This document shows positions 37,990 through 54,406 of a stretch of 64,000 bases of DNA, piece after piece. This DNA is from Brevibacillus brevis. GTDB taxonomy: Bacteria; Bacillota; Bacilli; Brevibacillales; Brevibacillaceae. Location of the stretch: positions 5,383,501 to 5,447,500 of the forward strand of contig NZ_CP134050.1 of NCBI RefSeq assembly GCF_031583145.1, written 5' to 3'. The position numbers and the translations under genes were made by a program. Below the pieces are notes generated by a model. That model saw only the letters and a list, made by a program, of their open reading frames with translations. It did no database searches and was not told the DNA's origin. Numbering within the stretch: the first letter of the stretch is position 1; the number at the start of each line of letters is the position of its first letter.

Positions 37990-38850
37990 TTATCCGGAAC
38001 TTGGCGTTGTTTTCACCAGCCGGACGGTTCTGCTCTCCTGCTCCCACTCCACCTGCATATCCAGCAAGGCTGCCAGCTCTCTCGTCGCGCTGTATGCCGT
38101 CCCGTTTTCAATCGTCACAGGCAGCGCCTTTCCGTTCACCGTCACTTTCTTGGGTCCGGCGTCCCACTCCACTTTTCCCCCCGCCGCTTCCGCTACTGCG
38201 CGGACTGGCAGGTACGAAACGCCCGCCCGCAGACGGCCTTTTACGGGCAGCGTCACCTGAATATCACAGTTATCCACATCCACCTGTGATTTTTGTGCAT
38301 AACCTGTTAGTAAGCTGTGGACACCCTTTTTGAACTGTTCCCACGCTTCCGCCGCGTTTTGTCCCACGTACTTTTGCGCGTAGTCATCCGATGCGAAGAA
38401 GGCCGGGCAGTTTTTTCCCGTGATGTCATAGTGCCGCCAAAGCTTGTCCACCCCCCACCCGTACCGATGGAGAATATCTGCCGCAAGCTCCAGTGTGTTG
38501 CGGTACATCGCCCGGAAATCCCCGTCTGCATTGACGCACATCTCGATGCCGATCGTGCAGTTGTTCGGGTAGGAACTGAGCCGCTCCAGGGCAGCGGGCT
38601 TGTACGACTGGGCTCCGACGTGGTACCCCATTTCATTTTCCGGCAGGCAGCGCACGATCTGCTTGTCGCAGACGATGTAGTGCGCGCTGGCCACCGTGGT
38701 CGGGCGGTTGAAGTAGTTGCGGTTGGCGATGGCATTGGCGCCCTTGCCTTCATTGGCCGTCCAATGGATCACCAGTCCCCGGGGAGTGATCCGTGTCCCC
38801 GGTCTGGCGTTTGGATTGGTCAGGAGCATTTCCGTAATCTGCAAAGTCAT
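37990..38850 (-). CDS. N-acetylmuramoyl-L-alanine amidase (tailocin endolysin)
   Basis: 286 residues. Amidase_2 domain: GLVIHWTANEG and SAHYIVCDKQIVRCLPENEMGYHVG with Zn-binding histidines, GIEMCVNADGD with the catalytic Glu, and RHYDITGKNCPAFF with the third Zn ligand. A C-terminal copper-amine-oxidase-type stalk domain (about 205-280; VSYLPVRAVAEAAGGKVEWDAGPKKVTVNG) replaces the usual SH3 or LysM binding domain. It cleaves the peptide-glycan bond and would release tail particles after holin action. Start ATGA overlaps the holin stop. Confidence 0.92.
   Translation of the reverse strand: MTLQITEMLLTNPNARPGTRITPRGLVIHWTANEGKGANAIANRNYFNRPTTVASAHYIVCDKQIVRCLPENEMGYHVGAQSYKPAALERLSSYPNNCTIGIEMCVNADGDFRAMYRNTLELAADILHRYGWGVDKLWRHYDITGKNCPAFFASDDYAQKYVGQNAAEAWEQFKKGVHSLLTGYAQKSQVDVDNCDIQVTLPVKGRLRAGVSYLPVRAVAEAAGGKVEWDAGPKKVTVNGKALPVTIENGTAYSATRELAALLDMQVEWEQESRTVRLVKTTPSSG
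38270..38323. promoter_or_regulatory. DnaA-box-like cluster 2, inside the amidase gene
   Basis: TTATCCACA (38270-38278) and TGTGCATAA (38294-38302), start to start 24 nt, exactly as in cluster 1; TGTGGACA follows at 38316. Flanking words (CCACAGCTTA and TAA after it on the minus strand) are also shared with cluster 1. Confidence 0.45.
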
Positions 38851-39311
38851 TTCCCTTCTTTCTGCTTCATGGCCCGTTCGGTCTTGGCCTTGATCTCGGT
38901 CTCGACCAGATTGACGATCGCTTTCGGCACCGGCCAGCCCGCCCGATGCGCATTCGCCGTCAAACTGTTCCAGGTGTGATAAATGAGCCCGAATGTCACT
39001 CCGTAAAAAAGAAACCCCGGCGTCGCCATCACGCGGTCAAGCAGGTTGGCAAGCGCGGGAAGGGCCAGGAAAAACATCGTGCGCGGCAGACGGCTCAGTC
39101 CGTATTCGGACGAGTAGGTCTTGTCCTGCTTCTTGGCCGCCTGAATCCCCGTGACCCAATCCAGCGCCGTGCAAACCAACAGGACAACCAGAATGTCGGC
39201 GCGCCCGGTTCCGTAGAAGTAATGAAAAACGGGAGCGACGACCGCCCCCGTGGTCGCGGCCCACCCGTGCGCCGGTGTCACCGCGTGCTCTACGCTTTGC
39301 CAAAATTTCAT
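38847..39311 (-). CDS. Phage-type holin (holin_4 family)
   Basis: 154 residues with three to four hydrophobic segments (WAATTGAVVAPVFHYFYG, ILVVLLVCTALDWVTGIQAA, MFFLALPALANLLD, FLFYGVTFGLIYHTW) and the family motif LDWVTGIQAAKK. The charged tail ends KAKTERAMKQKEGK. AAGGGAG precedes ATG 39311. It forms the lysis pair with the overlapping amidase gene. Confidence 0.9.
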   Translation of the reverse strand: MKFWQSVEHAVTPAHGWAATTGAVVAPVFHYFYGTGRADILVVLLVCTALDWVTGIQAAKKQDKTYSSEYGLSRLPRTMFFLALPALANLLDRVMATPGFLFYGVTFGLIYHTWNSLTANAHRAGWPVPKAIVNLVETEIKAKTERAMKQKEGK

Positions 39312-39344
39312 GTGCTCATCTCCCTTCTCACCCCCTTGGGGTAA

Positions 39345-39373
39345 ATATGAAAAGCCTCGTTAGGAACGAGGCT
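39345..39373 (-). terminator. Hairpin terminator upstream of the holin gene
   Basis: AGCCTCGTT (39353-39361) pairs with AACGAGGCT (39365-39373). On the minus strand TTTTCATATTT follows. It would stop transcripts arriving from the IS1182 element before the lysis genes. Confidence 0.65.
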
Positions 39374-39412
39374 GGTTGTCAGTCTTGGTGTCATTTAGAT
39401 TGGACGCCTTTC

Positions 39413-40969
39413 TAGAAGTCCGGTGATTTAAGTCAGTTGTATCCGTCTCTTCGGCATGAAAAAAGAGGAAAACAACCCAACCAACGCCGAAATGAGCAGG
39501 TCCGACACCGCCTCCATCATCACGGATTTCGGTTTTGGACATGCCGAAATACCGGTTTGGGGTCGTTTCTTCTTAAACCGGCATAGTTTTTTCAGATTTT
39601 GAACGATTGCCGTGAGCAGTGCCTGCTCCTGCATGCAATCCAGGCCGCGGCTCCGCGCGCGACCCAGGCCATGCGCGACTTTGCTTTCGGCAAACACATG
39701 CTCGCACCGCGTCCGTAACTTTTGCAGATGACGGTAAGAACCCTTGAGCTGAATTTGTTTGGCTTTGTTGCGGATTTGGATTTCTCGGATTTTGGCCAGA
39801 CGCTTGCGTTGTTTCTTCGGATCGTTCGTTTGGCGTTTCCAAGTCGGTACATCTTCCAGTGCCAGGTTGCGAAGCGAAACCAGAGGAATAATCCCTTGCT
39901 CGAACAGCGCTTGCAGATAATCTGTCGTACCGTAGGCTTTATCGGCAGAAAGCGTGCGAATCCGGATTTGCGGATGGGCAAAACGGATCGCGGCCAGCTG
40001 TTGCAAGCTCGTCTCGCGTTCAGCCGTTCCGGACGCGATGCTCGCTTGCGTAGACAGAATGACGCCGGATTTGACATCCGTCACATGATGCACCAAATAC
40101 CGCAAATGCGCTTCCTGACCGTTGCTCTTTTTGTACAAGCGAGCATCCGGGTCCGTCACGCTGCGGTAGGTCTTGTTCGAGAACCTTTTGCCATGAAAAT
40201 CTTCATGTGTCGCTTCGTCTTCCAGACGCCGTTCTGTTCGCGTGGGCGGTGCGGGCGGCCGTCTGTCATCATCGGAATCAGCGGCGTCACCTTCGGGTTG
40301 CTCGTCTTGCCGGGCCATGCGAGCCAGGTAGTCTTCAATCGACTCCACAGGTGCCAGAGTGATTTCTTTCAAGCTGTGGATAGAAGCGTTGGCGCGTACT
40401 TGGGAACCGTCGACTCCCGCATCTACATCGGGTTGGACCAGTCCGGCGGCGATGCACTGATCGACGACATGTTTCATGAGCGTGTCGAAAATACCGTGTT
40501 TTCGCCACAATTTCCGGGTCTTCACCAAGGTCGTCCGATCCGGCAGGGACGGCCTGGATGGATCCGGGCGCAAGACGGATTCGAAATCCAGTCCGCAAAA
40601 CCACAAGTAGCCCCCATGCATGGGCAACAGTTGATACAATTCCCGTTCGGAATGGTTGAACAAATACGAAAGCAGCATGAGTCGAACCATCCGCTCCGGG
40701 TCAGCCGCCGGGCGTCCGGTACGTTCCGTATACAGCGGCGCCACCCAATCATGGACGATGGAAAAATCAAGCGCTTCGTTCAGTTGGCGCAAGATGTGCT
40801 TTTTCGGTACGAGTTCATCCATATCCACAAATTGGAACATCTGAGGCTGGATAGCCGATGACTTATAGGCTTTCATGTTCAATCACTCTTTCGATCATCG
40901 TGTTACGATATAAATTCGACAAACCCGTGATAAAGGCCTGCTTACGCGGACTTTTTCACCGGACTTCTA
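39413..40969 (-). mobile_element. IS1182-family insertion sequence
   Basis: 1557-bp element bounded by perfect 14-bp inverted repeats: TAGAAGTCCGGTGA (39413-39426) and its complement (40956-40969). It contains one intact transposase gene. No target-site duplication is obvious in the immediate flanks. It lies between the tail fibre genes and the lysis genes of the tailocin locus. Confidence 0.92.
39428..40876 (-). CDS. IS1182-family DDE transposase
   Basis: 482 residues from ATG 40876 (GAGTGAT upstream; a TTG lies 6 nt earlier). N-terminal IS1182-type region (VPKKHILRQLNEALDFSIVHDWVAPLYTERTGRP), then catalytic segments VDGSQVRANASIHS (first Asp), LSADKAYGTTDYLQALFEQGIIPLVSLR (second Asp) and RTRCEHVFAESKVAHGLGRARSRG (Glu region). 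No frameshift or stop, so it may be active. Confidence 0.92.
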   Translation of the reverse strand: MKAYKSSAIQPQMFQFVDMDELVPKKHILRQLNEALDFSIVHDWVAPLYTERTGRPAADPERMVRLMLLSYLFNHSERELYQLLPMHGGYLWFCGLDFESVLRPDPSRPSLPDRTTLVKTRKLWRKHGIFDTLMKHVVDQCIAAGLVQPDVDAGVDGSQVRANASIHSLKEITLAPVESIEDYLARMARQDEQPEGDAADSDDDRRPPAPPTRTERRLEDEATHEDFHGKRFSNKTYRSVTDPDARLYKKSNGQEAHLRYLVHHVTDVKSGVILSTQASIASGTAERETSLQQLAAIRFAHPQIRIRTLSADKAYGTTDYLQALFEQGIIPLVSLRNLALEDVPTWKRQTNDPKKQRKRLAKIREIQIRNKAKQIQLKGSYRHLQKLRTRCEHVFAESKVAHGLGRARSRGLDCMQEQALLTAIVQNLKKLCRFKKKRPQTGISACPKPKSVMMEAVSDLLISALVGLFSSFFMPKRRIQLT

Positions 40970-41163
40970 AATGTTGCGAGAAAAGGCGTTTACACTCACA
41001 GAGATGTCTTACTTGTCCCCAGTCAGCGTACCTCCGCATCGCTTTTTACCGCTGGTTGCCAACCAGCCGTACACCAACAAAGGCGTGATGAACTGCTACA
41101 ATTTGTGCTACATAGTCGCTGCATGACATCAACTCTTTTTAGATCGCGAGCCAAACTCCCAGA
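40970..41163. other. Short segment between IS1182 and the tail gene cluster
   Basis: No convincing gene. A 51-codon plus-strand frame (40972-41127) lacks a ribosome site. The base composition and lack of features suggest leftover phage sequence from before the insertion. Confidence 0.4.
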
Positions 41164-41280
41164 TTAAAGCATCGTGTTTTGAATATCGAGCCTTGCCTGC
41201 ACTTCCTCCCGGAGATTGGCCGGTACCTGATCAATGGTCCGGCGCCCGGCTATCACCAGATTGTAGTAAATCGTTGCCAT
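41164..41280 (-). CDS. CD1375-like small phage protein
   Basis: 38 residues: ATG 41278-41280, stop 41164-41166. Sequence features MATIYYNLVIAGRRTIDQVP then ANLREEVQARL match the short CD1375-type proteins found between fibre and holin genes in tail loci of Gram-positive phages (family recollection). Its ATG overlaps the preceding stop (TAATG), so it is translationally coupled. Confidence 0.75.
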   Translation of the reverse strand: MATIYYNLVIAGRRTIDQVPANLREEVQARLDIQNTML

Positions 41281-41471
41281 TATGCGGTTCCTCCGATCTG
41301 TTCTTTGAGGGCGAGCAGCTCTTCATAGACCTGGGCTGTGGCTTCCATGATGTTCAGCTTGTCTTCCTTCTCCGCAGCCAGCTCCCTTTCCAGCCGTGCG
41401 ATTTTCTGCTCCGGGGACTCTTGCTGTTCCTCCCGAATCACTGAGATCGGCGTACGGTCCTGAAATTTCAT
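41280..41471 (-). CDS. Small coiled-coil tail-locus protein
   Basis: 63 residues from ATG 41471, overlapping the fibre gene stop (TGATG). Strongly helical and charged (SPEQKIARLERELAAEKEDKLNIMEATAQVYEELLALKEQI), suggesting a coiled coil. Position corresponds to XkdW in PBSX. Possibly a fibre chaperone or assembly factor (inference). Confidence 0.75.
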   Translation of the reverse strand: MKFQDRTPISVIREEQQESPEQKIARLERELAAEKEDKLNIMEATAQVYEELLALKEQIGGTA

Positions 41472-44400: not shown

Positions 44401-44647
44401 ATGTCAGCCCCGATTGCCTTTTACCTTTACCACCGACGTAAACACTTATTGTTTGTCCTGGAGTAAAAGTCAGCTCACCTGTAGCGTAACCTCCCTTGCC
44501 GCCAGCCGGACCCCCTCCTTGAGCTCCCCATGCTTCAATCTTGACTTTTCCTACCCCGGTAGGAACAACCCAGTTTTGCACAGAGCCTGTATATGAAAAA
44601 GTGTATGTTGTCCTTCCTTGTCCGTCCGTACCTATTACTGGCGCCAT
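41471..44647 (-). CDS. Glycine-rich tail fibre / receptor-binding protein
   Basis: 1058 residues, ATG 44647 with GGGAGGAG upstream. Residues about 10-240 are a glycine-rich domain (GKVKIEAWGAQGGGPAGGKGG, IIVAGGGGGQGG, many G-rich turns) opening with the FSYTGSVQNWVVPTGV edge strand typical of Gly-rich fibre heads. Next comes an Ig/cadherin-like domain (LNTPPTLTLSTPADNQTLTVGDNISI), then about 300 residues resembling a beta-propeller (repeated YWASTYGG, GTKLWWTANT, GKLHVVWHG, GKLTIHYEDGG), another Ig-like pair (KPVVTVTSPNDGLILTEG; RPPTISGQDGDLG) and a C-terminal beta domain. Best read as the host-recognition fibre. The DNA from about 42850 to 44650 is AT-richer than the 3' part. Confidence 0.85.
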   Translation of the reverse strand: MAPVIGTDGQGRTTYTFSYTGSVQNWVVPTGVGKVKIEAWGAQGGGPAGGKGGYATGELTFTPGQTISVYVGGKGKRQSGLTSGWNGGGEANSSGGGASDIRIGGTALSNRIIVAGGGGGQGGYESSTGGSGGGLSGSNGLGNGTIGGGAGGTQAAGGAGGTGGSYSGGSGSLGQGGSNTSNTTLYYGGGGGGYYGGGAGASSLSYNGGAGGGGSSFIGTLNSGATTPGVREGDGLVVITSLNTPPTLTLSTPADNQTLTVGDNISIPFTATDVEGDSMTFEAEIYSPVDAKWISLGTNFTRSPIVAPVPSMPDTTSAKYRVRAKDAYGTGEWAESSPVITIRQKDGQILAPVNVVSSAYLVSRMAPPVRLSNGWFVGAVRDTASNPDRFVFYRSIDNGRAWTEFANIQAASADVGVLSIVSKGNYVYWASTYGGVTVYAGAFDATTTTGNVFGTNRVIADNGQNNLGTVSVSITPDGTKLWWTANTKNSTYPNGFNLRVGSIPILPDGTLGNPSAAEQVTTFSNSTFPNFAVSPSIDFLNGIPVIAISQDRPFLNTGLETGTNKAITILKRDNTLTTGNSYLNANWSWQSIYKGGSYDQSSPMVIRTPNGKLHVVWHGTDSSDTVNPYIRYSNATTGADWLATPKKLVKGQNASITSDKNGKLTIHYEDGGNIKRIESTDEFASWSGPYTVAAGTVPASMYDPTFQTEFTIPPTFFQDTGAVKYYGAINVNKKPVVTVTSPNDGLILTEGVTFDLQGSATEEDVGDVVSVFYKVNSGAAQAAASGVSKGSSTPISFDQTLTYRNKRIWLGSTDITGRDLLENTDHTLTIWAEDNKSGKSPEVTRKFRVVWNRPPTISGQDGDLGTFMQPPTVDYSAVDPEGNTFTFTEYLNGKQIRSFDGTAGENYVVQIDHDAWIRLDLNVQHEIRIRATDSAGSYSERVYTFTRTETHIEFVLNFDNPDVQAHFVLDGMPQRVLVTLERYIPEGATIESVKVCNNALDASPTWEDATNAVKTNRGYLFTNTTKTATNWAINIWVVIAKGSATERVKLNGFGGAFD

Positions 44648-44709
44648 TATCTCGCTCCTCCCTTCCGTAAATGGCCGTTATCGGCAGGTTTCCTCTTTAG
44701 CCCAGCCAT
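44647..44709 (-). CDS. Possible 20-residue coupled ORF
   Basis: ATG 44709 overlaps the preceding stop (TGATG), and its stop overlaps the fibre gene ATG (TAATG). Basic peptide MAGLKRKPADNGHLRKGGAR. It contains the fibre gene ribosome site, so it may exist only as a coupling device, or be chance. Confidence 0.3.
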   Translation of the reverse strand: MAGLKRKPADNGHLRKGGAR

Positions 44710-44786
44710 CACTTGATCACCAGCCTTGCATTCGCCTGATCCAGCCATCCGGCCTCGATGATCAGGCCGGTCACAGATTTTCTCAT
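44709..44786 (-). CDS. Small 25-residue tail-locus protein
   Basis: ATG 44786 has GGAGGTG 9 nt upstream. Peptide MRKSVTGLIIEAGWLDQANA then RLVIK. Too short for family assignment, but the strong ribosome site and gapless position between fibre genes support expression. Confidence 0.45.
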   Translation of the reverse strand: MRKSVTGLIIEAGWLDQANARLVIK

Positions 44787-44792: not shown

Positions 44793-45065
44793 TTACACCT
44801 CCAGCCGACTCTGTGCCTCGTTGTAGTAACCCCGGATGACTTTGATCGAATCCAGAGTGGACAGGTCATCATTGAAATTATTCTTCGTAAACCCGTCGGG
44901 CAATGTGGCCTCCAGCGTGTTCACCCGCGTTTTCAGGTTCGATACGTCCGCAGTAAGGACGGAGATCTGAGCATGGGCGTCCGCGATACCTTTCTCCCAC
45001 CGGTTGATGTCTACTTCGGTAACCGGGTCGTCCATCTTCCAGTCCGTTTTTGCCTGGTAGCTCAT
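44793..45065 (-). CDS. Small fibre or baseplate coiled-coil protein
   Basis: 90 residues; ATG 45065 directly follows the preceding TAG. It starts MSYQAKTDWKMDDPVTEVDINRWEKGI, a motif common at the N-terminus of tail fibre/spike adaptors, followed by a heptad segment (AHAQISVLTADVSNLKTRVNTLEATL). Probably an adaptor of the fibre complex (inference). Confidence 0.75.
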   Translation of the reverse strand: MSYQAKTDWKMDDPVTEVDINRWEKGIADAHAQISVLTADVSNLKTRVNTLEATLPDGFTKNNFNDDLSTLDSIKVIRGYYNEAQSRLEV

Positions 45066-45383
45066 CTATTCCCCCCCTTTCACTTCAATGGCAAAGGTCA
45101 GATTTATGAACTGTGCACCATTGGTCTCAATAAAAACCGTCTTTTCAGCAACGACAGCGCCCGTATCTGTCAGCAGCTTCACGCTTGTGATCACCGGGAC
45201 GCTGTTTACATGCGGCGCGGTCACCTGCAGCGCAATGGCGTTCTCAACGCCGACTACGAGATTCGTAGAAATCGCGACCGCTGTAACCGGCACGGCCACC
45301 GAATTATTGATCAGGATATTACCTTTTTTGGCTCGTGCGATCAGGTCGTCTCGGATGATCTCTAGATATGCTTTATCGATCAT
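45066..45383 (-). CDS. Tail-locus protein, probable baseplate/fibre component
   Basis: 105 residues; ATG overlaps the preceding stop (ATGA). N-terminal helix (DKAYLEIIRDDLIARAKKG) then a beta-rich domain (VPVTAVAISTNLVVGVENAIALQVTAPHVNSVPVITSVKLL). Position equals the N-terminal part of XkdV-like fibre genes. No specific function recognised. Confidence 0.75.
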   Translation of the reverse strand: MIDKAYLEIIRDDLIARAKKGNILINNSVAVPVTAVAISTNLVVGVENAIALQVTAPHVNSVPVITSVKLLTDTGAVVAEKTVFIETNGAQFINLTFAIEVKGGE

Positions 45384-45952
45384 CTGACCAGCTCCTCATA
45401 TCGTTTGATTGGGGTCATGCCGACCCGGAACTCCCTGACAGTGTGGTACTCCTTTATGCCGATGACCATTACGTCCCGCAGCACGATCGTCTCCCGTGTG
45501 GTCGGCTCGAACGAGACGCCGTTGCAGTGAACTGGCCGGATCCGCTCCACAGCCTGCACCGCGTTTTTCGTGTCAAAGGTGTCTTCGACCGGGAACATGT
45601 ACTGAATCGTTTTCGAACCGAAGTCCTCGACCATCTGCACGTTTTTCAGTCGAGAAGAACTGATTCCGATCGCCCGCAGTACGCTGGGGGTAAACCCGAG
45701 GTACGCCCAGTGCTTCTGCTGGATGTTCTTTCGACGTTCCTCGATGCTGAAAAGCTGCTTTTTACCGAAGTAGATCCAATCCCAGACGTCCAGCCCCCAG
45801 GTTGCCGAGAGAGGGAAGAGCTGCTGCTCCAGGTCTGCGCGCTTTTCTGCGTGCGCATCGATGGCAGCCGTCGTGCCCTCGAAATGATAGTCCGCCACTT
45901 TGTTCTCATACCACTGAGGCGGAAGCATCTTTCGGTAACGCTCTGGAATCAT
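45380..45952 (-). CDS. DUF2313 (YmfQ/XkdU-like) tail protein
   Basis: 190 residues from ATG 45952, overlapping the baseplate J stop by 4 nt; the longer upstream frame is an artefact inside the baseplate gene. Motifs YRKMLPPQWYENKVADYH, DAHAEKRADLEQQLFPLSATWGLDVWD and the C-terminal FRVGMTPI fit the YmfQ/XkdU family that sits after gpJ in contractile tails, linking baseplate wedge and fibre. Confidence 0.88.
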   Translation of the reverse strand: MIPERYRKMLPPQWYENKVADYHFEGTTAAIDAHAEKRADLEQQLFPLSATWGLDVWDWIYFGKKQLFSIEERRKNIQQKHWAYLGFTPSVLRAIGISSSRLKNVQMVEDFGSKTIQYMFPVEDTFDTKNAVQAVERIRPVHCNGVSFEPTTRETIVLRDVMVIGIKEYHTVREFRVGMTPIKRYEELVR

Positions 45953-46764
45953 ACAGTCACCACCAGACTCAGGGAGGAAACCGCATCGGCCGGCACGGTC
46001 AGGTTTGCTTCTTCGCCGTTTAGGGTGAAATCCGCGAAATCCTCTACGCCGTCCACGAAAAAGAGCGTCCCGATCTGCTGGTACACGATCTGAGAACGCC
46101 CTTTCAAGTATGTCTGGATTTGCGCCGCGATCTGCTCCTGCACATTGTCCAGCACCGCATCCGCCCGCAAAACGAGGCGTACGGCGACGTTCACGGCGAA
46201 CATGTTGGCCGGGAATACCTTCAGGTCGTGTAAGGCCTTGCGTTTGTCCTCCAGCTTGGTACGCACAGTAGCGGCCAGTTCTGCCGAAGCGGGCTGCCCG
46301 TTCATATCCGTAATGTACACGTCGATGGAGAGATCGTGTCTCGCCTTCTCGATGGCGATCGCCCCGCCTACTCCGTCGACGTTCCGAGCCCACCTCTCGT
46401 AATCCTGACGGCGACCGTCGCCTTCTTCTGTTCGCGCGCGATCGATCAACCGCTGCCGGTAGGCGTCATCCGTCTCCCCTTCGTTCCGGGGAAGGCCAAA
46501 GAAAACGCCGTTCGCGTCCAGGAACTCGCCGTCTGCCCACGGGAGAAAGCGCTGAAGAAAGCCGTATTCCAGCAGCTGCTGCTGTTCGCTGATCTCCGCG
46601 GCGATCGGGTACTCGAAGTCGTAAAAGATCTCGCCTTCCTCCGTCGCAGGCGGGTTCTCCCCGCGCTGCTGCGCGAGAGCCGCCATCCTGTTTGCCATCC
46701 GCTGATAGATTTGATCCGGCGTCTCTCGCAAAATGGGCATGTCCGGTTTGTCTATCGTTGCCAT
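45949..46764 (-). CDS. Baseplate J-like wedge protein (XkdT)
   Basis: 271 residues. Motifs RETPDQIYQRMANRMAALAQ, the DGEFLDANGVFFGLPRNEGETDDAYRQRLIDRARTEEGDG region, and GDGRRQDYERWARNVDGVGGAIAIEKARHDLSIDVYI match the gpJ/XkdT baseplate wedge family (PF04865 type). Overlaps XkdS upstream by 13 nt. Confidence 0.92.
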   Translation of the reverse strand: MATIDKPDMPILRETPDQIYQRMANRMAALAQQRGENPPATEEGEIFYDFEYPIAAEISEQQQLLEYGFLQRFLPWADGEFLDANGVFFGLPRNEGETDDAYRQRLIDRARTEEGDGRRQDYERWARNVDGVGGAIAIEKARHDLSIDVYITDMNGQPASAELAATVRTKLEDKRKALHDLKVFPANMFAVNVAVRLVLRADAVLDNVQEQIAAQIQTYLKGRSQIVYQQIGTLFFVDGVEDFADFTLNGEEANLTVPADAVSSLSLVVTV

Positions 46765-47189
46765 GCGCTCACCTCCAATCTCGTAGAGCCTCTCGCTCCT
46801 TCGATTTCTACCTGAAACACGATTTTGTTGCCCGCAAACTTGATGTCGACCACCTCGGCGCGTTCGATTTCGCTGTGCGCTTCCAACGCTTCTTGCGCCT
46901 GGGCCTTGACGACCGCCAGGGGAATGCCGGAGCGCAGCCTGCCGAGGTTGGTCAAAAAGTCGACCCCGTACCGCTCCGAATAAATCGGGTAGCGAAAGCG
47001 GCGCGTGTGCAGGATTTTCTTCGCCGTCTCCTCGAGAAACTCCGGATACGACGCCGTGCGGACATATCGGCCGTCCGGTCCTTGCACGAGCTGCCGCGTC
47101 TCCCAGTCAAACTTGTACGTCCAGGGGATCGGGCCTTCCGTTTGCCCTGACAGCTGCTCTTCGCTCCCGCTCATTTCCGGAAACATCAT
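46752..47189 (-). CDS. DUF2634 (XkdS) baseplate protein
   Basis: 145 residues. TYKFDWETRQLVQGPDGRYVRT and RRFRYPIYSERYGVDFLTNLGR match the XkdS/DUF2634 (gp25-like) family of sheath-initiator baseplate subunits. Start overlaps the XkdR-like stop by 4 nt. Confidence 0.9.
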   Translation of the reverse strand: MMFPEMSGSEEQLSGQTEGPIPWTYKFDWETRQLVQGPDGRYVRTASYPEFLEETAKKILHTRRFRYPIYSERYGVDFLTNLGRLRSGIPLAVVKAQAQEALEAHSEIERAEVVDIKFAGNKIVFQVEIEGARGSTRLEVSAWQR

Positions 47190-47434
47190 TCCACCACCCC
47201 CAACAGAAGATACTGGTCGTTGCTGCAGCGAAGCACCGCTACCTTTTTCCCGACGTCTTCCAGTCGCAAATTGGCGCTCCGCAAGACCCCGAGCTCCTCG
47301 CGCTCCAGCGGCGCAGGGTCTTCGTCCAGCTTGACGGACAACGGGGACAGCGACAGCAGCCTGCCAAGCTCCCCTTGGGTATCGGTCAGCCCGGACTGGG
47401 CTTCCCTCCGTAATCTCGCAATGACGGAATACAT
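47186..47434 (-). CDS. DUF2577 (XkdR) tail protein
   Basis: 82 residues. SPLSVKLDEDPAPLEREELGVL and the terminal GKKVAVLRCSNDQYLLLGVV are typical of XkdR/DUF2577, a small OB-like beta protein next to the spike/hub gene. Position between XkdQ and XkdS confirms the assignment. Confidence 0.87.
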   Translation of the reverse strand: MYSVIARLRREAQSGLTDTQGELGRLLSLSPLSVKLDEDPAPLEREELGVLRSANLRLEDVGKKVAVLRCSNDQYLLLGVVE

Positions 47435-47436
47435 GC

Positions 47437-48390
47437 TTACGTCCTCCTCTCCAGTTGCAAATCCATCGTGTACCAGCCGCCCTTCCAGCGCGCCTGGCAG
47501 CTCGTGACGATCCAGTCGCTGATCGTCCGGTTGTCTTTCTCCAAGATTTTGATCATCCAGCCGGCCCGCAGGCGTGCGGCCTGTCCGTCGTCGTGACGCA
47601 CCGTAATCGAGCGCGTCCGCGGTATGCGCGACAGCTCGGACAGCTGCTTGGCTGCCAGCGAAGAAAGATTTGTCTCTTCGCCGGCATCGATGACCTTTTG
47701 CATGCGCCCGATGGTTTTGATCAGGCTGTCGTTTGCCTTCGACACGCTGCTCGCTACCTGATCATCCTTGTACCGCTCTACCGTCACGACCGTATACACT
47801 TCCTCGATGCTTTCCCCCGTGGAGCTGCTCTCCAGCATGCTCGCCTTGAACATCGGGATGACGCTGTTCCCGCCTTCGCGCACAACCGTCAATTTGTCGC
47901 GCTGGTACTGAACAAAGTAGCGCACCCCCGTTTTCTCATAGGCCTGCTCGGTCAGGGAAGTAAAGAGCGAAGCGTAGGACTGGGCCGGAAGCCTTTCCTT
48001 GGAGGAAAATCCGAACGGCGGACAGCTGAAACGAATCCCCGAAGCGCTGATGATGCGCCCCAGCTCGGTCCCGACATCGCCGTTGAGCTTGAGGCGGGAG
48101 ACCTCGTTCTTTTGCAAATACCACCCGAGCTCATAGGCGGTGCCTGTCACGTCGCCGGTTTTGTCGTCCCGGCTCATCTGAACGAGCGGTCCGTGAAAAA
48201 ACTGCTGCGCTTCCAACAGCTCGACTCCCGAAAAGAGCATGAAAAAACCCGCCGATTGCAGCGGCGGGGGTTCCTCGATGCGAACGTCGCACGTCTGGGC
48301 GAGCTGGCCCCGGGACGATGACCAAGAGAGCTCCAGCACGGCCGGTGTCAGATCGTAGCGGATATGCTCTTTGCCGTAAATGACTCGCAT
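47437..48390 (-). CDS. XkdQ-like baseplate hub protein (gpD family)
   Basis: 317 residues. RYDLTPAVLELSWSSSRGQLAQTCDVRI opens the first beta domain; GTAYELGWYLQKNEVSRLKLNGDVGTELGRIISASGI is typical of late-control gpD/XkdQ hubs; the tail ends with a DNA-free beta domain. The hub joins tube and baseplate and carries the central spike. GAGGTGATGG precedes ATG 48390. Confidence 0.88.
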   Translation of the reverse strand: MRVIYGKEHIRYDLTPAVLELSWSSSRGQLAQTCDVRIEEPPPLQSAGFFMLFSGVELLEAQQFFHGPLVQMSRDDKTGDVTGTAYELGWYLQKNEVSRLKLNGDVGTELGRIISASGIRFSCPPFGFSSKERLPAQSYASLFTSLTEQAYEKTGVRYFVQYQRDKLTVVREGGNSVIPMFKASMLESSSTGESIEEVYTVVTVERYKDDQVASSVSKANDSLIKTIGRMQKVIDAGEETNLSSLAAKQLSELSRIPRTRSITVRHDDGQAARLRAGWMIKILEKDNRTISDWIVTSCQARWKGGWYTMDLQLERRT

Positions 48391-48394
48391 TCCA

Positions 48395-48994
48395 TCACCT
48401 CATCCCGTGGGCGTGCTCCAGCTTTTCGCGGATCAAGTCACGCTTTTCCTTCTGCTGCTTGTCTCCGCCGGGAGAAGCGCTCGTCCCCTGCGGCGGGGAA
48501 GGCTTCCTGGCCTTCTTGCCGGTCGTGTTGGGACGCGCAGACTGCTGCTTGGCGATGACCGTCCCCGGACTCAACAGCTGCGTCTGGTTGCTCCAGCTGA
48601 CGAACTCGTCGCGGACAAACAGCGGCAGCTCGATGGTACCGTGAAAGTCGGCGTGCTTGCCGCTGAACTTGCCGTCGCACGGCCCGACGAGGACGTTCCA
48701 GGCGAGATCCAGCTCCTCGATCGTCAGCAGCACCTCGGAGCCGGTCAATCGATCCAGCCCGGCCAGCCAGGAGCGAGGCCCTTGGTAGCCCTGGACCTCG
48801 ATGTACGGCGCGAAAATGTCTCCCGGCAAAAAGAAATCGAAGGCGATCGATTTGGGGCGCCTTCCGGAAATCCGGTTCCCGGTCAGCAGCGTGATGGATG
48901 TCGTACTTTCCGTATCGTTCCCGTACCCGCGAAACTGGATTTCCCCAGGGGTAACGGGGAACGTCAGCCTGTATTTGCCTTGCATCCGGATCAT
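48395..48994 (-). CDS. XkdP-like tail protein without LysM domain
   Basis: 199 residues. KYRLTFPVTPGEIQFRGYGNDTESTTSITLLTGN then GRRPKSIAFDFFLPGDIFAPYIEV match XkdP-like proteins at this position. PBSX XkdP ends in a LysM peptidoglycan-binding domain; here the C-terminus is a Pro/Lys/Gln-rich linker and basic helix (KRDLIREKLEHAH) with no visible LysM. Start overlaps the tape-measure stop (ATGA). Confidence 0.85.
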   Translation of the reverse strand: MIRMQGKYRLTFPVTPGEIQFRGYGNDTESTTSITLLTGNRISGRRPKSIAFDFFLPGDIFAPYIEVQGYQGPRSWLAGLDRLTGSEVLLTIEELDLAWNVLVGPCDGKFSGKHADFHGTIELPLFVRDEFVSWSNQTQLLSPGTVIAKQQSARPNTTGKKARKPSPPQGTSASPGGDKQQKEKRDLIREKLEHAHGMR

Positions 48995-51363
48995 ACCGGC
49001 ACACCTCCTCTCGTTTCCAATGCGTCCAGGAGCGATTTCTCGATGATGCTCTTGATCTTTTGCGCGACGGACGGATCTCCGAGCATCTTCAGCATGGTCG
49101 GGATGTCCTGCAAGACCCCTTCCGCGTGCAGGGGAATCGTGATTTGCGGAATGGTGATGGAGACGGAGGACGGCTGTGCTCGTACAGCGGACGCAGGCGA
49201 GCTGCCCGGTACAGGAGGACCGCTCGGCATCGTTTGGCGAATCGCCTGACGCTCCTCCGCCTCAAGCGGCTTTCGCACCCCCGTAACCGGTGCTTCCGAG
49301 CCCCCCTGCCACCATGACTTGATTCCGTCAAAAGCTGCACTGCCGAGCATCGAGCCGCCGAATCCGCCGATCAGACCGCCGATGACACCGCCCGCAGCCG
49401 TACCGATGATCGGGACCACGGAGCCGATGGCCGCACCGGCCGCAGCTCCTGCCGCCGCTCCGCCCCAGCTGCCCAGCGCCTCGGCGCCGAGCTGCCCCGC
49501 TTTCTCCAGCTTGTTGTCGGACTGCAGCCATTCAGCCGCGCCCAATACCGTACCCAGCAACGGAACCTTCCGCAGCAGCGTTTTCGCTCCTTTGAGACCG
49601 GCACCCCCGGGAATGCCGGAATGGCTGCTGCCTCCAGGAGAAAATCCGCTAAATTGGCGGGATGCAAATCCATCGACTGTGTGCCCAGAACCTTTGCTTT
49701 CGGTATGAGCAGCTGCGCTCTTTCCGGCTCCCTGATCCTTGGCCATTTCTTTCGCGGTAGCCGATCTGGAATCTTTGGCGTTCGACTCGGAAAGGTCAGC
49801 AGCGGTTTGATGAGGACCTCCTGATTTACCGCCATCGGATTTTGCACCACCCGAATCGTGATCGGGAACGGTGCCCCCTGCTGGGCCTTGCCTCTTTCCT
49901 TGGAACAATTTTCGCGAGGCATCCCATAGGTCTCTGCCAAGCGGAACCATCTGTGCTGCTTTCGCCATGCCTATCACGATGGTGCCAGCAATGATAAGAT
50001 CATCAATGAAAGATTTCACTGAGACATTCGCCTCATTAAATGTGCGGATTAATGATGCCATGGCCTGTGAAATACCCTCATAAAAACCGGATGTATCCTT
50101 GGCAAAGAAAGCCGATGCCTCCATCACTTCCTGCTTGGCTTTCGCTTGCTCCACCATCTGATCATAATACGCATTTTCCCGAGTAGCCGCCTCGTAGGAC
50201 TTGTCGACCTCGTTCCCCACCTGAGTCCGCGTTTCCCCGGTCGCGATTTTCCCCGCCGTCTCCAAGAGGTGCGGGAACTGGGACCCCAGGTCTTTCCCAG
50301 CATTGCCTCCCAGGCTTTGCAGCACCTTTTGCTGAGCGGCTTTGTCCTGCATCGTAGCGATGGACATCATCAGTTTCCCGAGCGCGATTCGCTGCTCGTC
50401 CTGGTCGCCAGATGCCAGCGCTCCCGTAATTTTCGCCGCCTCTTCTTTTGCCAGGGAAGCGGATTTTGCTCCCTTGCCCTGCGATTCGTACTGCGTCTGG
50501 AGCAGCTTTGTGAGCTCCCCTTGGTCGGCGAACTTGAGCGTGCTCTCCCGCAGCGCACTAAACGCCTTGTCATCGTTCCAGATACCCAGTTTGCCGATCT
50601 CGCTGACCATCGTCGCCATTTTTTCGGGCGTGTCCAACAGCTTGCCGTTTTGGGCACTGAACTCGACGACGGCATCCACGAACTTGCCGTTCAAGTCTCC
50701 TGCGTGGTTGCTCATGTACTGAATCGAATTAGCCAGCCGCGCCGCATCATCAATCCCGGTGCTTTGCCGCAGGGCCGCCATCATTTTCAGGTGCTCCTCT
50801 GGCCCGTACTTCGTCGTGAGGCTCAGTTTGGTCGCCTGCTCCGCGTAGGCTTCCGCGTGCTTGGGATTCACCTGTTCACTTTTGGAAACAAGCGCCATCA
50901 CTTGCGATTTGTTCAAGTACGGATTCACGGTGGCCAAGCGACTGGTGAGCTCGTCGAAACGTCTCATTTCTTCATTGGTCTTTCCCTTGGCAGCATACAA
51001 TGCGCGCTCTCTGGCGGCTGCCTTCCCCTCATCCACAGTTGCACTCCAGGTGGTCCCCAGGGCTAACTTCGAAAGCTGCGAGCTAATACTCGTTACCTGT
51101 TGACTCACGGCTCCGAGTTTGTCCAGAAAGGTACCAAACCGCTCCATCCTCGATGGCATTTCTTGTCCGAGCTGATTCATCTCCTCGCGCATCTTTCGGA
51201 CCTGCAGCTGCATCTGCTCCATCCCGCTGGCGAACTCTCTGGTCATTTTCTGCATCGACCTTCCGGCTGTCCCCAGCGTGCCCGAGAATCTTCCCGCTTC
51301 CGCAGACAGCTTACGGACTTCCTTGCGTACAGCCTGGAGCTGGTCTTTTTCTGAAAAAAACAC
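48991..51363 (-). CDS. Tail tape-measure protein (XkdO-like)
   Basis: 790 residues from GTG 51361-51363, with GGGGGTGA 7 nt upstream; ATG 51393 in the same frame has no ribosome site. N-terminal coiled coils (LQAVRKEVRKLSAEAGRF, MQLQVRKMREEMNQL), then the phage minor-tail region, hydrophobic segments (about 480-500) and a Gly/Ala-rich hydrophobic stretch (WGGAAAGAAAGAAIGSVVPIIGTAAGGVIGGLIGG). Shorter than PBSX XkdO, so the particle tail should be shorter (length scales with tape-measure length; inference). Confidence 0.9.
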   Translation of the reverse strand: MFFSEKDQLQAVRKEVRKLSAEAGRFSGTLGTAGRSMQKMTREFASGMEQMQLQVRKMREEMNQLGQEMPSRMERFGTFLDKLGAVSQQVTSISSQLSKLALGTTWSATVDEGKAAARERALYAAKGKTNEEMRRFDELTSRLATVNPYLNKSQVMALVSKSEQVNPKHAEAYAEQATKLSLTTKYGPEEHLKMMAALRQSTGIDDAARLANSIQYMSNHAGDLNGKFVDAVVEFSAQNGKLLDTPEKMATMVSEIGKLGIWNDDKAFSALRESTLKFADQGELTKLLQTQYESQGKGAKSASLAKEEAAKITGALASGDQDEQRIALGKLMMSIATMQDKAAQQKVLQSLGGNAGKDLGSQFPHLLETAGKIATGETRTQVGNEVDKSYEAATRENAYYDQMVEQAKAKQEVMEASAFFAKDTSGFYEGISQAMASLIRTFNEANVSVKSFIDDLIIAGTIVIGMAKAAQMVPLGRDLWDASRKLFQGKRQGPAGGTVPDHDSGGAKSDGGKSGGPHQTAADLSESNAKDSRSATAKEMAKDQGAGKSAAAHTESKGSGHTVDGFASRQFSGFSPGGSSHSGIPGGAGLKGAKTLLRKVPLLGTVLGAAEWLQSDNKLEKAGQLGAEALGSWGGAAAGAAAGAAIGSVVPIIGTAAGGVIGGLIGGFGGSMLGSAAFDGIKSWWQGGSEAPVTGVRKPLEAEERQAIRQTMPSGPPVPGSSPASAVRAQPSSVSITIPQITIPLHAEGVLQDIPTMLKMLGDPSVAQKIKSIIEKSLLDALETRGGVPV

Positions 51364-51434
51364 GTCCCATTCACCCCCTGTCTTTCCAAACATAAATAGC
51401 GAAGCACAAGCCGGGTACCGGAAAAGCCAGAGGC

Positions 51435-51601
51435 TCAGCCTCTAGCGTTTTCCTCCTCCGATTCGATGATCTGGCACGCAAACAGGAACAGCTTTTGCTT
51501 GTACCGATCGACTTCGTACTCCAACAGATCCGACGGCAGCCCGCGGCCTTTCAAAAAGGCCCGGCAAAGATGCCAGGCTTCCCCGTCAGATCGGATCAGT
51601 T
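51435..51601 (-). CDS. -1 frameshift extension of the tail-assembly chaperone
   Basis: Reading shifts at A AAA AAC (51605-51599) from the XkdN frame into -1, adding 54 residues (LIRSDGEAWHLCRAFLKGRG ... ACQIIESEEENARG) and ending at TGA 51437-51435. This gives a fused product of about 180 residues. The extension has no start codon or ribosome site of its own, coding-like composition, and fills the only gap between XkdN and the tape measure, exactly where gpGT-type products lie in tailed phages. Confidence 0.82.
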
Positions 51602-51976
51602 TTTTGCTTCTTCGATGGCTTCCTCCTCAGACTGGCCGGCGTTGACCTGGCGGACGGCCTGAAGCAGCTGCGTGTAGCCTTCCGGGTTGTCGCGGAAAAT
51701 CTTCTCCACCAGCTCGTACTTGCTTCCGACCTTGTAGGCTTTTTTCAGCTCCTCCTGATTCCATGGAAAATCGTGCTCGGTCGCTTTCACCAGACGCGCG
51801 TCGTTGTACAGGAACCAATCGGTCTTGTCCCCCTTGTCCGCCATGCGCTCGCAGTCGCGCAGCTCGGACAGATTCAATTGGCGGACCTTCCACACATCCC
51901 CGTCGATGACGACCTCGATTTCTTTGCGCGGCGCTGGCTCCTGGGCCTTCGCCAAATATTTCTCCAGCTTGTTCAT
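51596..51976 (-). CDS. Tail assembly chaperone, short form (XkdN)
   Basis: 126 residues. Features: KLEKYLAKAQEPAPRKEIEVVIDGDVWKVRQLNLSELRDCERMADKGDKTDWFLYNDARLVKATEHDFPW, typical of XkdN/tail-chaperone proteins that coat the tape measure before tube polymerisation. AAGGGGG precedes ATG 51976. The 3' end carries the frameshift site. Confidence 0.9.
   Translation of the reverse strand: MNKLEKYLAKAQEPAPRKEIEVVIDGDVWKVRQLNLSELRDCERMADKGDKTDWFLYNDARLVKATEHDFPWNQEELKKAYKVGSKYELVEKIFRDNPEGYTQLLQAVRQVNAGQSEEEAIEEAKN
51599..51605 (-). promoter_or_regulatory. Programmed -1 frameshift site A AAA AAC
   Basis: Canonical slippery heptamer in the correct zero-frame phase, one codon before the XkdN stop (51596-51598). 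A hairpin GGCCTTT/AAAGGCC (51545-51551/51555-51561) lies about 38 nt downstream and could stimulate slippage. Confidence 0.82.
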
Positions 51977-51991
51977 TTCGCTTTTTCCCCC

Positions 51992-52444
51992 TTATTCGAT
52001 GTACGCAGGCAGTTCGTCCAAATAATCCGGCTTGTCGATGGAAATCCCTTTCAGGTCGTACGTCGCGTGGTCGGTTCCGTCCGCCTTGGCTTCCCACAGG
52101 GTGATCTCTTCCGGATTGAGCACGATGTTGGAAATGCGCACGCGCTCGGAGTTGCCGCCTTCCTTGTCCAGCGTCTCCCCGATCAGGAAAGGCAGCATCG
52201 GCGTCTTGCCGCTTGTCAGCTGCTCCACGCAGTAGTATTTGAGGGCCGCGTTGGTGGCCGTGATCTTGAGCGTGACCTCCACGTGCCAGTCGTTGACGGT
52301 CTGGATTTTTCCTTTTTGCAGACGATTCGTGTCGCCGTACTCCACCTTGAGGGTCATTTTCCCTTCCAGCGTCCCGTAGATCGGATCCCCGTTTTCGTCG
52401 TAAATTTGGCAGTTTTTCAGTTTGATATCGCGTGCAATCGCCAT
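51992..52444 (-). CDS. Tail tube protein (XkdM)
   Basis: 150 residues. MAIARDIKLKNCQIYDENGDPIYGTLEGKMTLKVEYG, IQTVNDWHVEVTLKITATN and FDLKGISIDKPDYLDELPAYIE-like end match XkdM-type inner tube proteins of contractile tails. ATG abuts the sheath gene stop (TAAATG). Forms the rigid tube that penetrates the target envelope. Confidence 0.9.
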   Translation of the reverse strand: MAIARDIKLKNCQIYDENGDPIYGTLEGKMTLKVEYGDTNRLQKGKIQTVNDWHVEVTLKITATNAALKYYCVEQLTSGKTPMLPFLIGETLDKEGGNSERVRISNIVLNPEEITLWEAKADGTDHATYDLKGISIDKPDYLDELPAYIE

Positions 52445-53782
52445 TTACAGCACCTCCCAGTCAATGTCAAAGTATTCGATGGCATCCAGCGGCTTGGCGG
52501 ACAGAAGGAAGCCCCTGCGGTCCCCTACACCGTTTTTGAGATCCGCAAACGTCCAACCCGAATCGATGGCGCCCTGCTGCTCGCGGACCGTCATGTAGGC
52601 ATGGACCGCCGAAACAAAGACAGCGCCGCCCAAATCGTTGTTGCTCAGCTTACCCTTGTACTTCTTGCCGACCTGGCTGATGTCGTTGACGATCTGATCG
52701 AGCGTCATGCTGACCCGGATTTTTCCGTAGTCCTCGCGTTCGCCGGTGCCCACGACGGCCAGCGTGTTGACGGCGCTCTCGATGATGTACACGCCGCCGT
52801 CTCGCGTCGCAATCAGGGTGCCAGTCCCGAGTGCGCGCAAAATCTCGGTGTGTCCCCAATCCTTCAGCGCTTTTTTCAATGGAACCACGACGGCTGTCAG
52901 CGACTCGTGCGCAGGCGTCGCCGCGATCATCCCGGCCACCCACGCTGCCCATTCCAGACTGCCGTACGTCTTGCCGTTGTTGTGCTCGCCCGCGATCGCG
53001 CAGTTCACCACATAACGTGCGTTTTGCGCGACGGAGCGCTCCACATGCTTGTCCATGTTGTCATCGTCGGCGCTTTTGCCCCCGATGACCAGCGTGCTCA
53101 GCTTTTTGTTCTGCGTCCGGCGGTCATTCATGAACTGCTTCGCCGCCGCTTGTACCGCCACATCGTCAAACGGGAGGTACATCGTGTCGAAGTCGGCACC
53201 GGATACAGCCGCAAACAGCTTCGTCGCGTCGGAAGCGCTCCATGCAGGGGCCCCGCTCGTGCCGCCGGCCAGCGCAATTTCCGGCATCAGGGAAATCGCC
53301 GCGTCGCCGAGTTTTTTCACGCGCACGTAAATGGATTGGTTCGTCTTCGCTGCCAGCTCGTCCGCATTGGCAAACGAGTACTTCTCGGTGCGAATCGGCC
53401 CTTGCACCTGCAGCTCCTTTTTGCCCGGCTCGGACGCCGAGGAAATGACGGCGATTTTCAGATCGTTGCCGCGCAGGCCCGGGTACAGCGCTTCGACCCG
53501 GAACGCGTCCGGCTGCTCGTAGGAGGCTGCTGCAGCCGCCCCGTTGGTCACCCGATAACCGAGGACGGTCGCGCCGCCCTCCGCCGCCAGCTCGATGGCG
53601 TCCACTTCCCCGAAGGTTTCCGCCAGACGCTCATCGTAGCTCGAGAGCCGCACCAGCGTATCCGGCGCTCCCCACTCCGCTTGATACGGCACCAGCACGA
53701 CACCGCTCTTCGCTTCTACGCGTTCTTTTGCTTTTGCAATCAATTCGACCGTGACTCCCGGTCTCTCCCGATGAATGGTCAT
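52445..53782 (-). CDS. Contractile tail sheath protein (XkdK)
   Basis: 445 residues from ATG 53782 (GGGAG upstream; the frame upstream lacks a ribosome site). Opening MTIHRERPGVTVELIAKAKERVEAKSGVVLVPYQAEWG and AESLTAVVVPLKKALKDWG-type core plus the C-terminal SMTLDQIVNDISQVGKKYKGKLSNNDLGG match phage_sheath_1/XkdK. Presence of a sheath makes this an R-type (contractile) particle, not F-type. Confidence 0.93.
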   Translation of the reverse strand: MTIHRERPGVTVELIAKAKERVEAKSGVVLVPYQAEWGAPDTLVRLSSYDERLAETFGEVDAIELAAEGGATVLGYRVTNGAAAAASYEQPDAFRVEALYPGLRGNDLKIAVISSASEPGKKELQVQGPIRTEKYSFANADELAAKTNQSIYVRVKKLGDAAISLMPEIALAGGTSGAPAWSASDATKLFAAVSGADFDTMYLPFDDVAVQAAAKQFMNDRRTQNKKLSTLVIGGKSADDDNMDKHVERSVAQNARYVVNCAIAGEHNNGKTYGSLEWAAWVAGMIAATPAHESLTAVVVPLKKALKDWGHTEILRALGTGTLIATRDGGVYIIESAVNTLAVVGTGEREDYGKIRVSMTLDQIVNDISQVGKKYKGKLSNNDLGGAVFVSAVHAYMTVREQQGAIDSGWTFADLKNGVGDRRGFLLSAKPLDAIEYFDIDWEVL

Positions 53783-53835
53783 TCGTTTCTCCCGCCTTTG
53801 TTTTTTCTTGGTTTTGTTTCGCCCCTGCCTCAACG

Positions 53836-53892
53836 AAAAAGAGCCCCTCGTCCTCAGACTGTCATCGTCCGAGTGTCCGCGGTGCTCTTTTT
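53836..53892 (-). terminator. Terminator-like hairpin between the XkdJ-like and sheath genes
   Basis: AAAAAGAGC (53836-53844) pairs with GCTCTTTTT (53884-53892) around about 39 nt; T-runs flank it on both strands. It would reduce read-through into the structural genes from upstream, or act as an attenuator. Confidence 0.6.
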
Positions 53893-53947
53893 GTGTTGGT
53901 CAGGACGTCAATCACGCGCACATACACTGACTTTCTGCCGCCGCTCT

Positions 53948-54406
53948 TCACGGCGCCTCCTGAATGTCAAACGCGTTCAGCTTTTCCCCGCTCTCCCGCG
54001 GAACGGGCACGTGGTACGTGAACCGGAACGTCATTTCCAGCCGGTCCTTCTTGTCACGCCAGATCCGAAAGGTAGCGCTGTCCACCTCGATGCAGATGTC
54101 CGCCGTCTTCCCCCGGTAGCTGTACTGCTTTTGGCGCAGCAGCTGCCGCAGCGGCTCAGCGGACAGCGGCTGGTAAATCCCCTCGCTAAGGGGAAACTGC
54201 AGGACGATGACAGCATCCGCCTCGACCTGGTAGGATGTCAGGCTGCTCTGCACCTCACCCGCGCCCTGCGTCGTCACAATGGCGACGGGCGCTTCGAACC
54301 GATGCTCAAGCCACTCCTGCATATTTGCCAATGTCGCCAGTCCCGGATACGCTTCCTCTACCAGGTCGACGACGACGGAGATTTCAGGCTCCATGCCGCT
54401 TTGCAC
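53948..54406 (-). CDS. XkdJ-like / tail terminator-type protein (DUF6838-like)
   Basis: 152 residues, GTG 54404-54406 with GGAG 8 nt upstream. ISVVVDLVEEAYPGLATLANMQEWLEHRFEAP, QFPLSEGIYQPLSAEPLRQLLRQKQYSYRGKTADICIEVD and MTFRFTYHVPVPRE fit the small protein preceding the sheath gene in PBSX-type loci (XkdJ), whose fold resembles tail terminators. It is the first phage-type gene; nothing of the head module lies upstream. Confidence 0.75.
   Translation of the reverse strand: MQSGMEPEISVVVDLVEEAYPGLATLANMQEWLEHRFEAPVAIVTTQGAGEVQSSLTSYQVEADAVIVLQFPLSEGIYQPLSAEPLRQLLRQKQYSYRGKTADICIEVDSATFRIWRDKKDRLEMTFRFTYHVPVPRESGEKLNAFDIQEAP

Follow-up and report, generated by a model that had tools for sequence, protein, structure and literature searches.

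What kind of element is a contractile phage tail that lies in a bacterial chromosome without any recognisable head? The question is raised by a locus of Brevibacillus brevis, transcribed from high to low coordinates on the minus strand (37990-54394) of a 64-kb stretch of its 6.23-Mb genome (G000:C1:5383501-5447500, hereafter the window; G, C and L handles denote genomes, contigs and loci), which encodes a contractile tail, a holin and an amidase. R-type tailocins and diffocins consist of contractile tail, baseplate, fibre and lysis genes and have no head, and we consider it highly likely that the locus represents a headless contractile-tail element maintained in the chromosome and resembling an R-type tailocin, presumably placed under SOS control through LexA, an activator and a promoter module. 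The resemblance to R-type tailocins, already proposed in the original prediction, is well supported by comparative sequence analysis because a headless tail is combined with lysis genes, no complementing head genes were found with the three families searched, the neighbourhood partly recurs in relatives, and an SOS-type box precedes the likely regulator. A tailocin-like element is in itself of a known kind; what is new is the control module, the regulator with its LexA-type box and the unlinked targets. Gene content, the lack of recognised head genes, the module, the box and their distribution can be read directly from the DNA.

A same-strand run of tail genes in PBSX order had been claimed for this locus, and matches to Pfam and PHROG families confirm it on the minus strand. 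From 54750 down to 37990 the order is control module, neck, sheath, tube, chaperone, tape measure and XkdP-, XkdQ- and XkdR-like genes, then sheath initiator, baseplate J, a Gp48-like gene, fibre genes, an insertion sequence (IS), holin and amidase (Table 1). Sheath, tube (a weak match), baseplate, tape measure and fibre genes are thus all together at the locus, and the lysis genes needed for release, holin and amidase, are present with the IS before both. The gene list of the original prediction was correct except that the transposase at 39428-40882, between fibre and holin, had been overlooked; the label XkdJ-like for the first gene found no support, as this gene, here called neck, matches nothing in Pfam, PHROG or NCBIfam, and the upstream boundary moves to the promoter module at 54598-54750.

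PBSX, whose genes run from sheath to amidase, also carries capsid, portal and terminase genes. In principle, the locus could therefore belong to a PBSX-like element that packages host DNA into heads encoded elsewhere, which would account for the gene order and for the occurrence in the genus of head-bearing prophages with a related tail. The order from sheath to amidase is indeed alike in the comparison given in the consulted part of PMC9406221, but the head genes were not found here. The absence of portal, capsid and terminase genes noted earlier stood up: none was recognised in the window, and the suggested check for head and packaging genes elsewhere yielded no match to Terminase_3, Phage_portal or TerL_ATPase, the three Pfam families searched genome-wide, and a single sheath match. 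In a Bacillus subtilis control PF04466 and PF04860 were detected and PF03354 was not. Six head queries of two head types, taken from four of the 8 head-bearing loci described below, matched all 8 of those loci and had no match in 785 kb around headless loci (124 kb of the own chromosome plus 39 partly overlapping stretches). By the families and queries searched, the head and packaging genes of a PBSX-type element occur neither at the locus nor in the genome, and we regard such an element as a very improbable explanation.

Of 26 genomes of the genus, 21 have a sheath match, which is near full length and at least 69% identical in 19 of them (the own genome included), a remnant in G014 and a distant match only in G025. 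About 20 kb was examined around each of 22 other near-full-length loci: 14, from 14 genomes, are headless (L032-L044, L046), and 8 combine head genes with a related tail (L045, L047-L053; the head of L049 is of a different type). Across the 14 headless relatives the sheath is 79-83% identical in tblastn and the tube 91-95%, and matches cover most of each query except for the tape measure and the fibre; the long fibre, which has a glycine-rich N-terminal part and a Big_7 domain, is conserved in patches only. Recurrence of the headless cassette in 14 related genomes shows that this is not a chance pattern. Trees of sheath, tube and chaperone, of the P-Q-R-S-T genes and of neck each separate the headless loci, window included, from the head-bearing ones (FastTree supports for the split: 0.874; 0.733 and 0.994; 0.596 and 0.999). 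One headless lineage is the simplest reading of these trees and, as judged from sequence similarity, the tail shares ancestry with Brevibacillus prophage tails. The proposed comparison with relatives thus bore out the headless state in 14 genomes and left a fixed chromosomal position unproven. Downstream of the amidase, homologues of g32 and/or g31 are present in 7 of the 12 headless relatives whose flank was examined (G002, G005, G006, G007, G012, G019 and G022) and were not seen in the 4.4-12 kb of flank from G011, G017, G018, G023 and G024. The upstream flank varies, with MetAP/Tag/DinB-like genes in many relatives and rhamnose-type genes in the window and L046 (names from a reading of the sequences). 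As the flanks are partly alike and the upstream side differs, the neighbourhood is recurrent rather than proven fixed.

Upstream of neck, the window and its headless relatives share a control module composed of direct repeats, a -10-like box, a conserved CAAGCGAA and an intrinsic terminator. A model built from 17 module sequences gave 48 matches at E <= 1e-3 in 20 of the 26 genus genomes, 39 of them at E <= 1e-5. Since only the best 124 (scan of the genus) or 82 (scan of the other genomes of the family) of some 700-1900 first-look candidates per genome were scored, absences in these scans are not proof, and one module, before a subtilase homologue in G022, was overlooked by the scan and found on direct look (E 2.2e-5). 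The terminator lies a few tens of nucleotides (nt) behind the -10 box in 40 full-length matches. In 40 distinct rows the 9-pair helix of the module is paired in 99.2% of cells. Both partners of a pair have changed in 10 cells, where shuffles give 2.0 and none of 500 reached 10. The underlying alignment of 41 matches had been fitted to the model, and one of its members is a partial antisense match; in the first 17 sequences covariation was not above shuffles. At the 8 head-bearing loci no module was found at E <= 1 in the DNA examined, and the phage-type regulator of G021 has behind it only a terminator-like match (E 0.013). Among 66 IMG/VR loci that encode relatives, 24 have the module, all with regulator and neck; none of these has a head gene in the roughly 1.7-4.2 kb before the sheath, and no IMG/VR locus with head genes has the module within the at most 6 kb before the sheath that could be covered. 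Phage isolates contributed 30 records with a sheath match, the best 20 of the 30 being only 23-27% identical. Outside the genus, one of 13 other genomes of the family (G034) has a module at E <= 1e-5, right behind a regulator homologue and before homologues of neck and sheath. At L128:5695-9500, from a different genus within the family, the order regulator, module, neck, sheath is kept and no head genes intervene; the locus is without a LexA-type box upstream, where by eye there is an open reading frame (ORF) resembling a helix-turn-helix repressor.

The likely partner of the module is a regulator whose homologue in the own genome occupies 5467922-5468548 on the minus strand, outside the window and some 30 kb upstream of the tail operon. 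It is weakly ArpU/Ltr-like, to judge from a TIGR01637 match of the L046 homologue (E 4e-6; 27.1 bits against a cut-off of 43.1); the own regulator stretch had no family match in the NCBIfam search. That it is an activator acting on the module is likely in view of their distribution. Among the 26 genomes, 20 have both regulator and module, one (G021) has the regulator only, none the module only and five neither (Fisher p 9e-5, which is not a count of independent events because the species are related). In 20 of 20 cases the regulator is upstream of the nearest module on the same strand, at a distance of 83 nt to 7.2 kb that is <=600 nt in 13 of the 20. A strict GAAC-N4-GTTC box, which we take to be a LexA box, stands 76 nt before the own regulator match; its background is 0.31 per 10 kb. 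The strict box occurs once upstream of neck in 13 of the 14 headless relatives, always upstream of the regulator by about 40 nt to 1.2 kb; for the fourteenth, G019, the neighbouring stretch has it at -72, and four loci whose tails were lost or replaced have it at -38 to -76. It was not found in the 1.2-8.8 kb upstream of the prophage-type regulators of L116, L117, L118, L122 and L123. Mechanically called ORF lists of the 14 headless relatives place an HTH_16-like gene before the regulator in 8 cases and a sigma-region-4-like gene there in 5.

Several observations weigh against an intact, LexA-controlled tailocin. As only three head families were searched throughout the genome, a divergent head could be encoded elsewhere; the family match of the regulator is below its cut-off; and, with 30 kb between the regulator and the own tail module, control must act in trans. 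The IS between fibre and holin may have uncoupled the lysis genes, and an ORF of 60-70 amino acids (aa) that all 22 relatives compared have between neck and sheath is lost in the window; with the IS before the lysis genes and the small ORF missing, full function of this copy is in doubt. The tail has, moreover, been lost in several relatives and is thus dispensable: it is absent behind regulator and module in G008, G009 (5.49 Mb), G016 and G020 (C29), which retain holin and/or amidase, while that of G014 is degraded and the Q match of L046 is split. The IS, the lost ORF and the missing or damaged tails would all fit a decaying prophage remnant in which the head was lost by decay and the tail lingers without present function. 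We nevertheless consider a remnant unlikely, since the other structural ORFs of this copy are open, the queries are mostly covered in the relatives as described above, the headless loci form a single clade, and regulator, LexA-type box and module have been retained.

The module is not confined to tails. Of the 39 modules at E <= 1e-5, 16 precede tail genes, including one remnant and one case in which a different ORF comes first, and 3 mark loci from which the tail has been lost. Another 6 stand in front of other genes within such islands, one of them in the G014 remnant. Rhs operons account for 3 and unlinked subtilases for 4 (G018:C13 assigned by similarity, not Pfam). A further 4 adjoin prophage-type genes, G024:C3 being assigned solely on its divergent upstream regulator; one, G012:C3, is degenerate and occupies what resembles the Rhs site of G023 and G006; and two, G019:C20 and G024:C1, have no assigned target. 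Five of nine weaker matches were inspected: G005:296846 and two of G002 (prophage), and G023:2054766 and G020:C48 (subtilase). The own genome has three modules, before the tail operon, before an 896-aa subtilase gene and before a 673-aa gene followed by Rhs. The subtilase gene (G000:C1:5255817-5258504) is directly behind its module (E 1e-7), 180 kb from the tail. At E <= 1e-40 the genus contains 8 matches to it, its self-match among them, and a module stands before 8 of 8 (seven from the genome scan, 0-0.7 kb before the ORF, and that of G022 by direct search at 1.3 kb). The Rhs operon (G000:C1:5452936-5460499, window coordinates 69436-76999), right of the window, consists of the 673-aa gene and then a 1839-aa Rhs gene; a 139-aa ORF and a KptA/Tpt1-family gene (PF01885) come next. 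Homologues of the 673-aa gene occur in 16 of the 26 genomes. Modules stand before the own copy of this gene and before its divergent copies in G023 and G006, and no full module was found before 13 other long homologues of the 673-aa gene, among which L206 has a terminator-only match (E 0.003) and that of G014 has a contig end about 0.1 kb upstream. The idea that Rhs operons are a fixed part of the regulon was consequently rejected; with 8 of 8 subtilases against 3 Rhs operons and none of 13 others with a full module, subtilases are firm members and Rhs operons occasional ones.

The shared module invites the suggestion that the locus is an extracellular contractile injection system which delivers an Rhs or subtilase effector, rather than a puncturing tailocin. 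We consider this quite improbable, since phage-type lysis genes are present, no effector-loading gene was recognised in the operon, and the extra genes are separate units, the own Rhs pair beginning, by eye, like secreted proteins. Elsewhere, the prophage locus L118:14739-18233 has a subtilase gene that is preceded by a module and flanked by the regulator on one side and terminase-type genes on the other, and at the tail-less locus L111:4572-6758 a gene for a papain-type cysteine protease lies behind the module, before holin and amidase. At 57534-61164 the window contains Rhs-type fragments and small genes, one of them YxiG-like (PF24711), which by eye resemble displaced Rhs ends and their neighbours.

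Our preferred explanation of the locus, an SOS-controlled headless tail, would operate as follows, and the binding, induction, particle formation, killing and co-expression that it involves are what we infer from gene content and arrangement. Upon DNA damage LexA would leave the box upstream of the ArpU/Ltr-like activator gene, and the activator would bind the three direct repeats of the promoter module and turn on the tail operon. Holin and amidase, last in the operon, would then lyse the cell and release tails whose fibre picks the target, while the other module-bearing genes, here the own subtilase and the own Rhs operon, would be switched on together with the tail. If this is correct, the bacterium took over a phage tail together with a phage late-gene switch and placed it under LexA, and the promoter unit of the switch recruited other secreted proteins into the same response. 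The module can be scanned for, which makes members of the regulon predictable, and a likely bacterial weapon and its shared control can now be tested.

How the activator would act on a promoter followed at once by a terminator is a separate question. In the Q/pR'/tR' system of lambda, a promoter is followed immediately by a terminator and the regulator gene lies upstream; the layout here is alike by position, a likeness of arrangement only. We raise antitermination because terminators lie both in the module and inside the operon. A terminator-like hairpin with a T-run between neck and sheath was found in 16 of 16 loci folded, window included, and persists in the window although the small ORF that encloses it in relatives is lost. 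Over 22 relatives (18 distinct) both partners of a pair have changed in 16 cells, where shuffles give 7.3 and none of 500 reached 16; coding constraint acts there as well, and the structure was taken from one of the sequences. In 15 operons, terminator-like hairpins number 72 sense and 26 antisense; within genes, tail genes have 30 sense and 10 antisense in 128 kb and other genes 17 and 38 in 218 kb. The sense excess in tail genes is suggestive only, as the 15 operons are related, positions are few and mechanically called ORFs in the control may be on the wrong strand; the scan also overlooked the module terminator in the window, L043 and L046. Tentatively, then, a LexA-controlled domesticated phage late regulator may run a weapon regulon through a promoter unit with an immediate terminator, acting as a lambda Q-like antiterminator; the regulon would possibly comprise the headless tail, lysis genes, secreted subtilases and, in a few genomes, an Rhs toxin, and the antiterminator might pass the further terminators of the operon as well. 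Antitermination of this kind, if confirmed, would give a tailocin of a Gram-positive bacterium a Q-like mechanism. We lean, however, towards the view that the module terminator is an ordinary attenuator or insulator and that the activator merely stimulates initiation, as described for Ltr proteins. In PMC13123087, Ltr-type activators are described as working on direct repeats that precede a TATA box immediately after the activator gene, a layout that the module shares. The conserved position and pairing of the module terminator, the occurrence of the module before unlinked genes and the further terminator-like hairpins within the operon fit initiation alone less well.

Comparison with known systems sets the control apart from the tail itself. 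The Ltr/ArpU/Alt late regulators have activator gene, direct repeats and TATA box in the same order (PMC13123087), whereas here a conserved terminator comes immediately after them, the activator has a LexA-type box in front of it, and the module also stands at unlinked genes. The gene classes are those of headless R-type tailocins and diffocins, from which the locus differs in its PBSX-type gene set and in a control module common to subtilase and Rhs genes. The host had been considered poorly described for such systems, which is only partly right, because for Brevibacillus laterosporus 1821L the parts of PMC9406221 (Babar et al.) consulted report a phage-tail-like bacteriocin with mitomycin C induction, tail-like structures in electron microscopy, activity on Gram-positive strains and a sheath (XkdK A0A518VEB0) 68.1% similar to a B. 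brevis protein; its production is the subject of PMC11245835. Both elements are contractile-tail loci with related sheaths in the same genus. For one strain, the consulted parts of PMC9406221 describe the locus as containing xtmB genes and an unnamed phage region; a promoter module, LexA box or linked genes were not found in them. No description of the module or regulon was recognised in the literature searched, as judged from titles and abstract openings, mostly of non-subscription journals.

Table 1. Features of the tail locus in window coordinates, in the direction of transcription
Feature	Position	Strand	Match or remark
Control module R1	54598-54750	minus	model match E 1.7e-22
Module, three direct repeats	54717-54745	minus	~10 bp each
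Module, -10-like box	54677-54685	minus	TTTATACTT
Module, conserved sequence	54665-54676	minus	AAGCCAAGCGAA
Module, intrinsic terminator	54602-54635	minus	
Structured leader element, long hairpin	54505-54586	minus	fold of 54496-54590, -44.4 kcal/mol
Neck, first gene of operon	53948-54394	minus	ORF to 54406, ATG at 54394; named by position only
Terminator-like hairpin between neck and sheath	53836-53892	minus	
Tail sheath (XkdK-like)	52445-53782	minus	PF04984, phrog_279 E 3e-68
Tail tube (XkdM-like)	51992-52444	minus	weak: phrog_365 E 8e-5; DUF2001 below cut-off
Tail assembly chaperone (XkdN-like)	51596-51976	minus	PF08890, phrog_389
Tape measure, 800 aa	48991-51393	minus	phrog_794 E 3e-10, one among ten families
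XkdP-like	48395-48994	minus	phrog_380 E 2e-6
XkdQ-like (YQBQ)	47437-48390	minus	PF24032, phrog_400
XkdR-like by position	47186-47434	minus	phrog_579 E 5e-4
Sheath initiator (XkdS-like)	46752-47189	minus	PF10934
Baseplate J (XkdT-like)	45949-46764	minus	PF04865, phrog_6
Gp48/DUF2313-like (XkdU)	45380-45952	minus	PF10076 below cut-off, phrog_521
Small tail-associated protein	45066-45383	minus	phrog_6293
Small fibre-associated protein	44793-45065	minus	phrog_12754, phrog_15651
Long fibre, 1058 aa	41471-44647	minus	PF12810, PF17957
Small ORF behind fibre	41280-41471	minus	similar sequence in L041, L034 by eye
38-aa ORF	41164-41280	minus	presumably XkdX-like, by position
IS	39413-40971	minus	DDE transposase 39428-40882, PF01609/PF05598; between fibre and lysis genes
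IS inverted repeats	39413-39426 and 40956-40971		
Terminator-like hairpin before holin	39350-39373	minus	by eye; also L041, L034
Holin	38847-39311	minus	PF05105, phrog_199
N-acetylmuramoyl-L-alanine amidase	37990-38850	minus	PF01510

The leader hairpin element of Table 1 was matched in 12 of the 14 headless relatives and not seen in L043 and L044; it also occurs before other genes in L032 and L034. A search of 53500-55000 against Rfam gave three matches at E <= 5, the best with 25.1 bits against a gathering score of 108. A short tape measure was rejected as a mark of tailocins: taken as the longest ORF between chaperone and XkdP, it has 713-892 aa in 15 headless loci against 602-1232 aa in the 8 head-bearing loci, six of which have 812-844 aa.

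The EamA gene ends at 54781, just before the module, and farther upstream are MocR, the Rhs-type fragments and transposase pieces. EamA and MocR were rejected as parts of the element, EamA being unmatched in the stretches from relatives and MocR having one weak match (L061). A gene similar to the flanking short-chain dehydrogenase/reductase gene lies near the locus in L046, L054 and L108. Transposase-like pieces at 61249-63996 (IS110-type and IS21-type by eye) adjoin a low-GC stretch.

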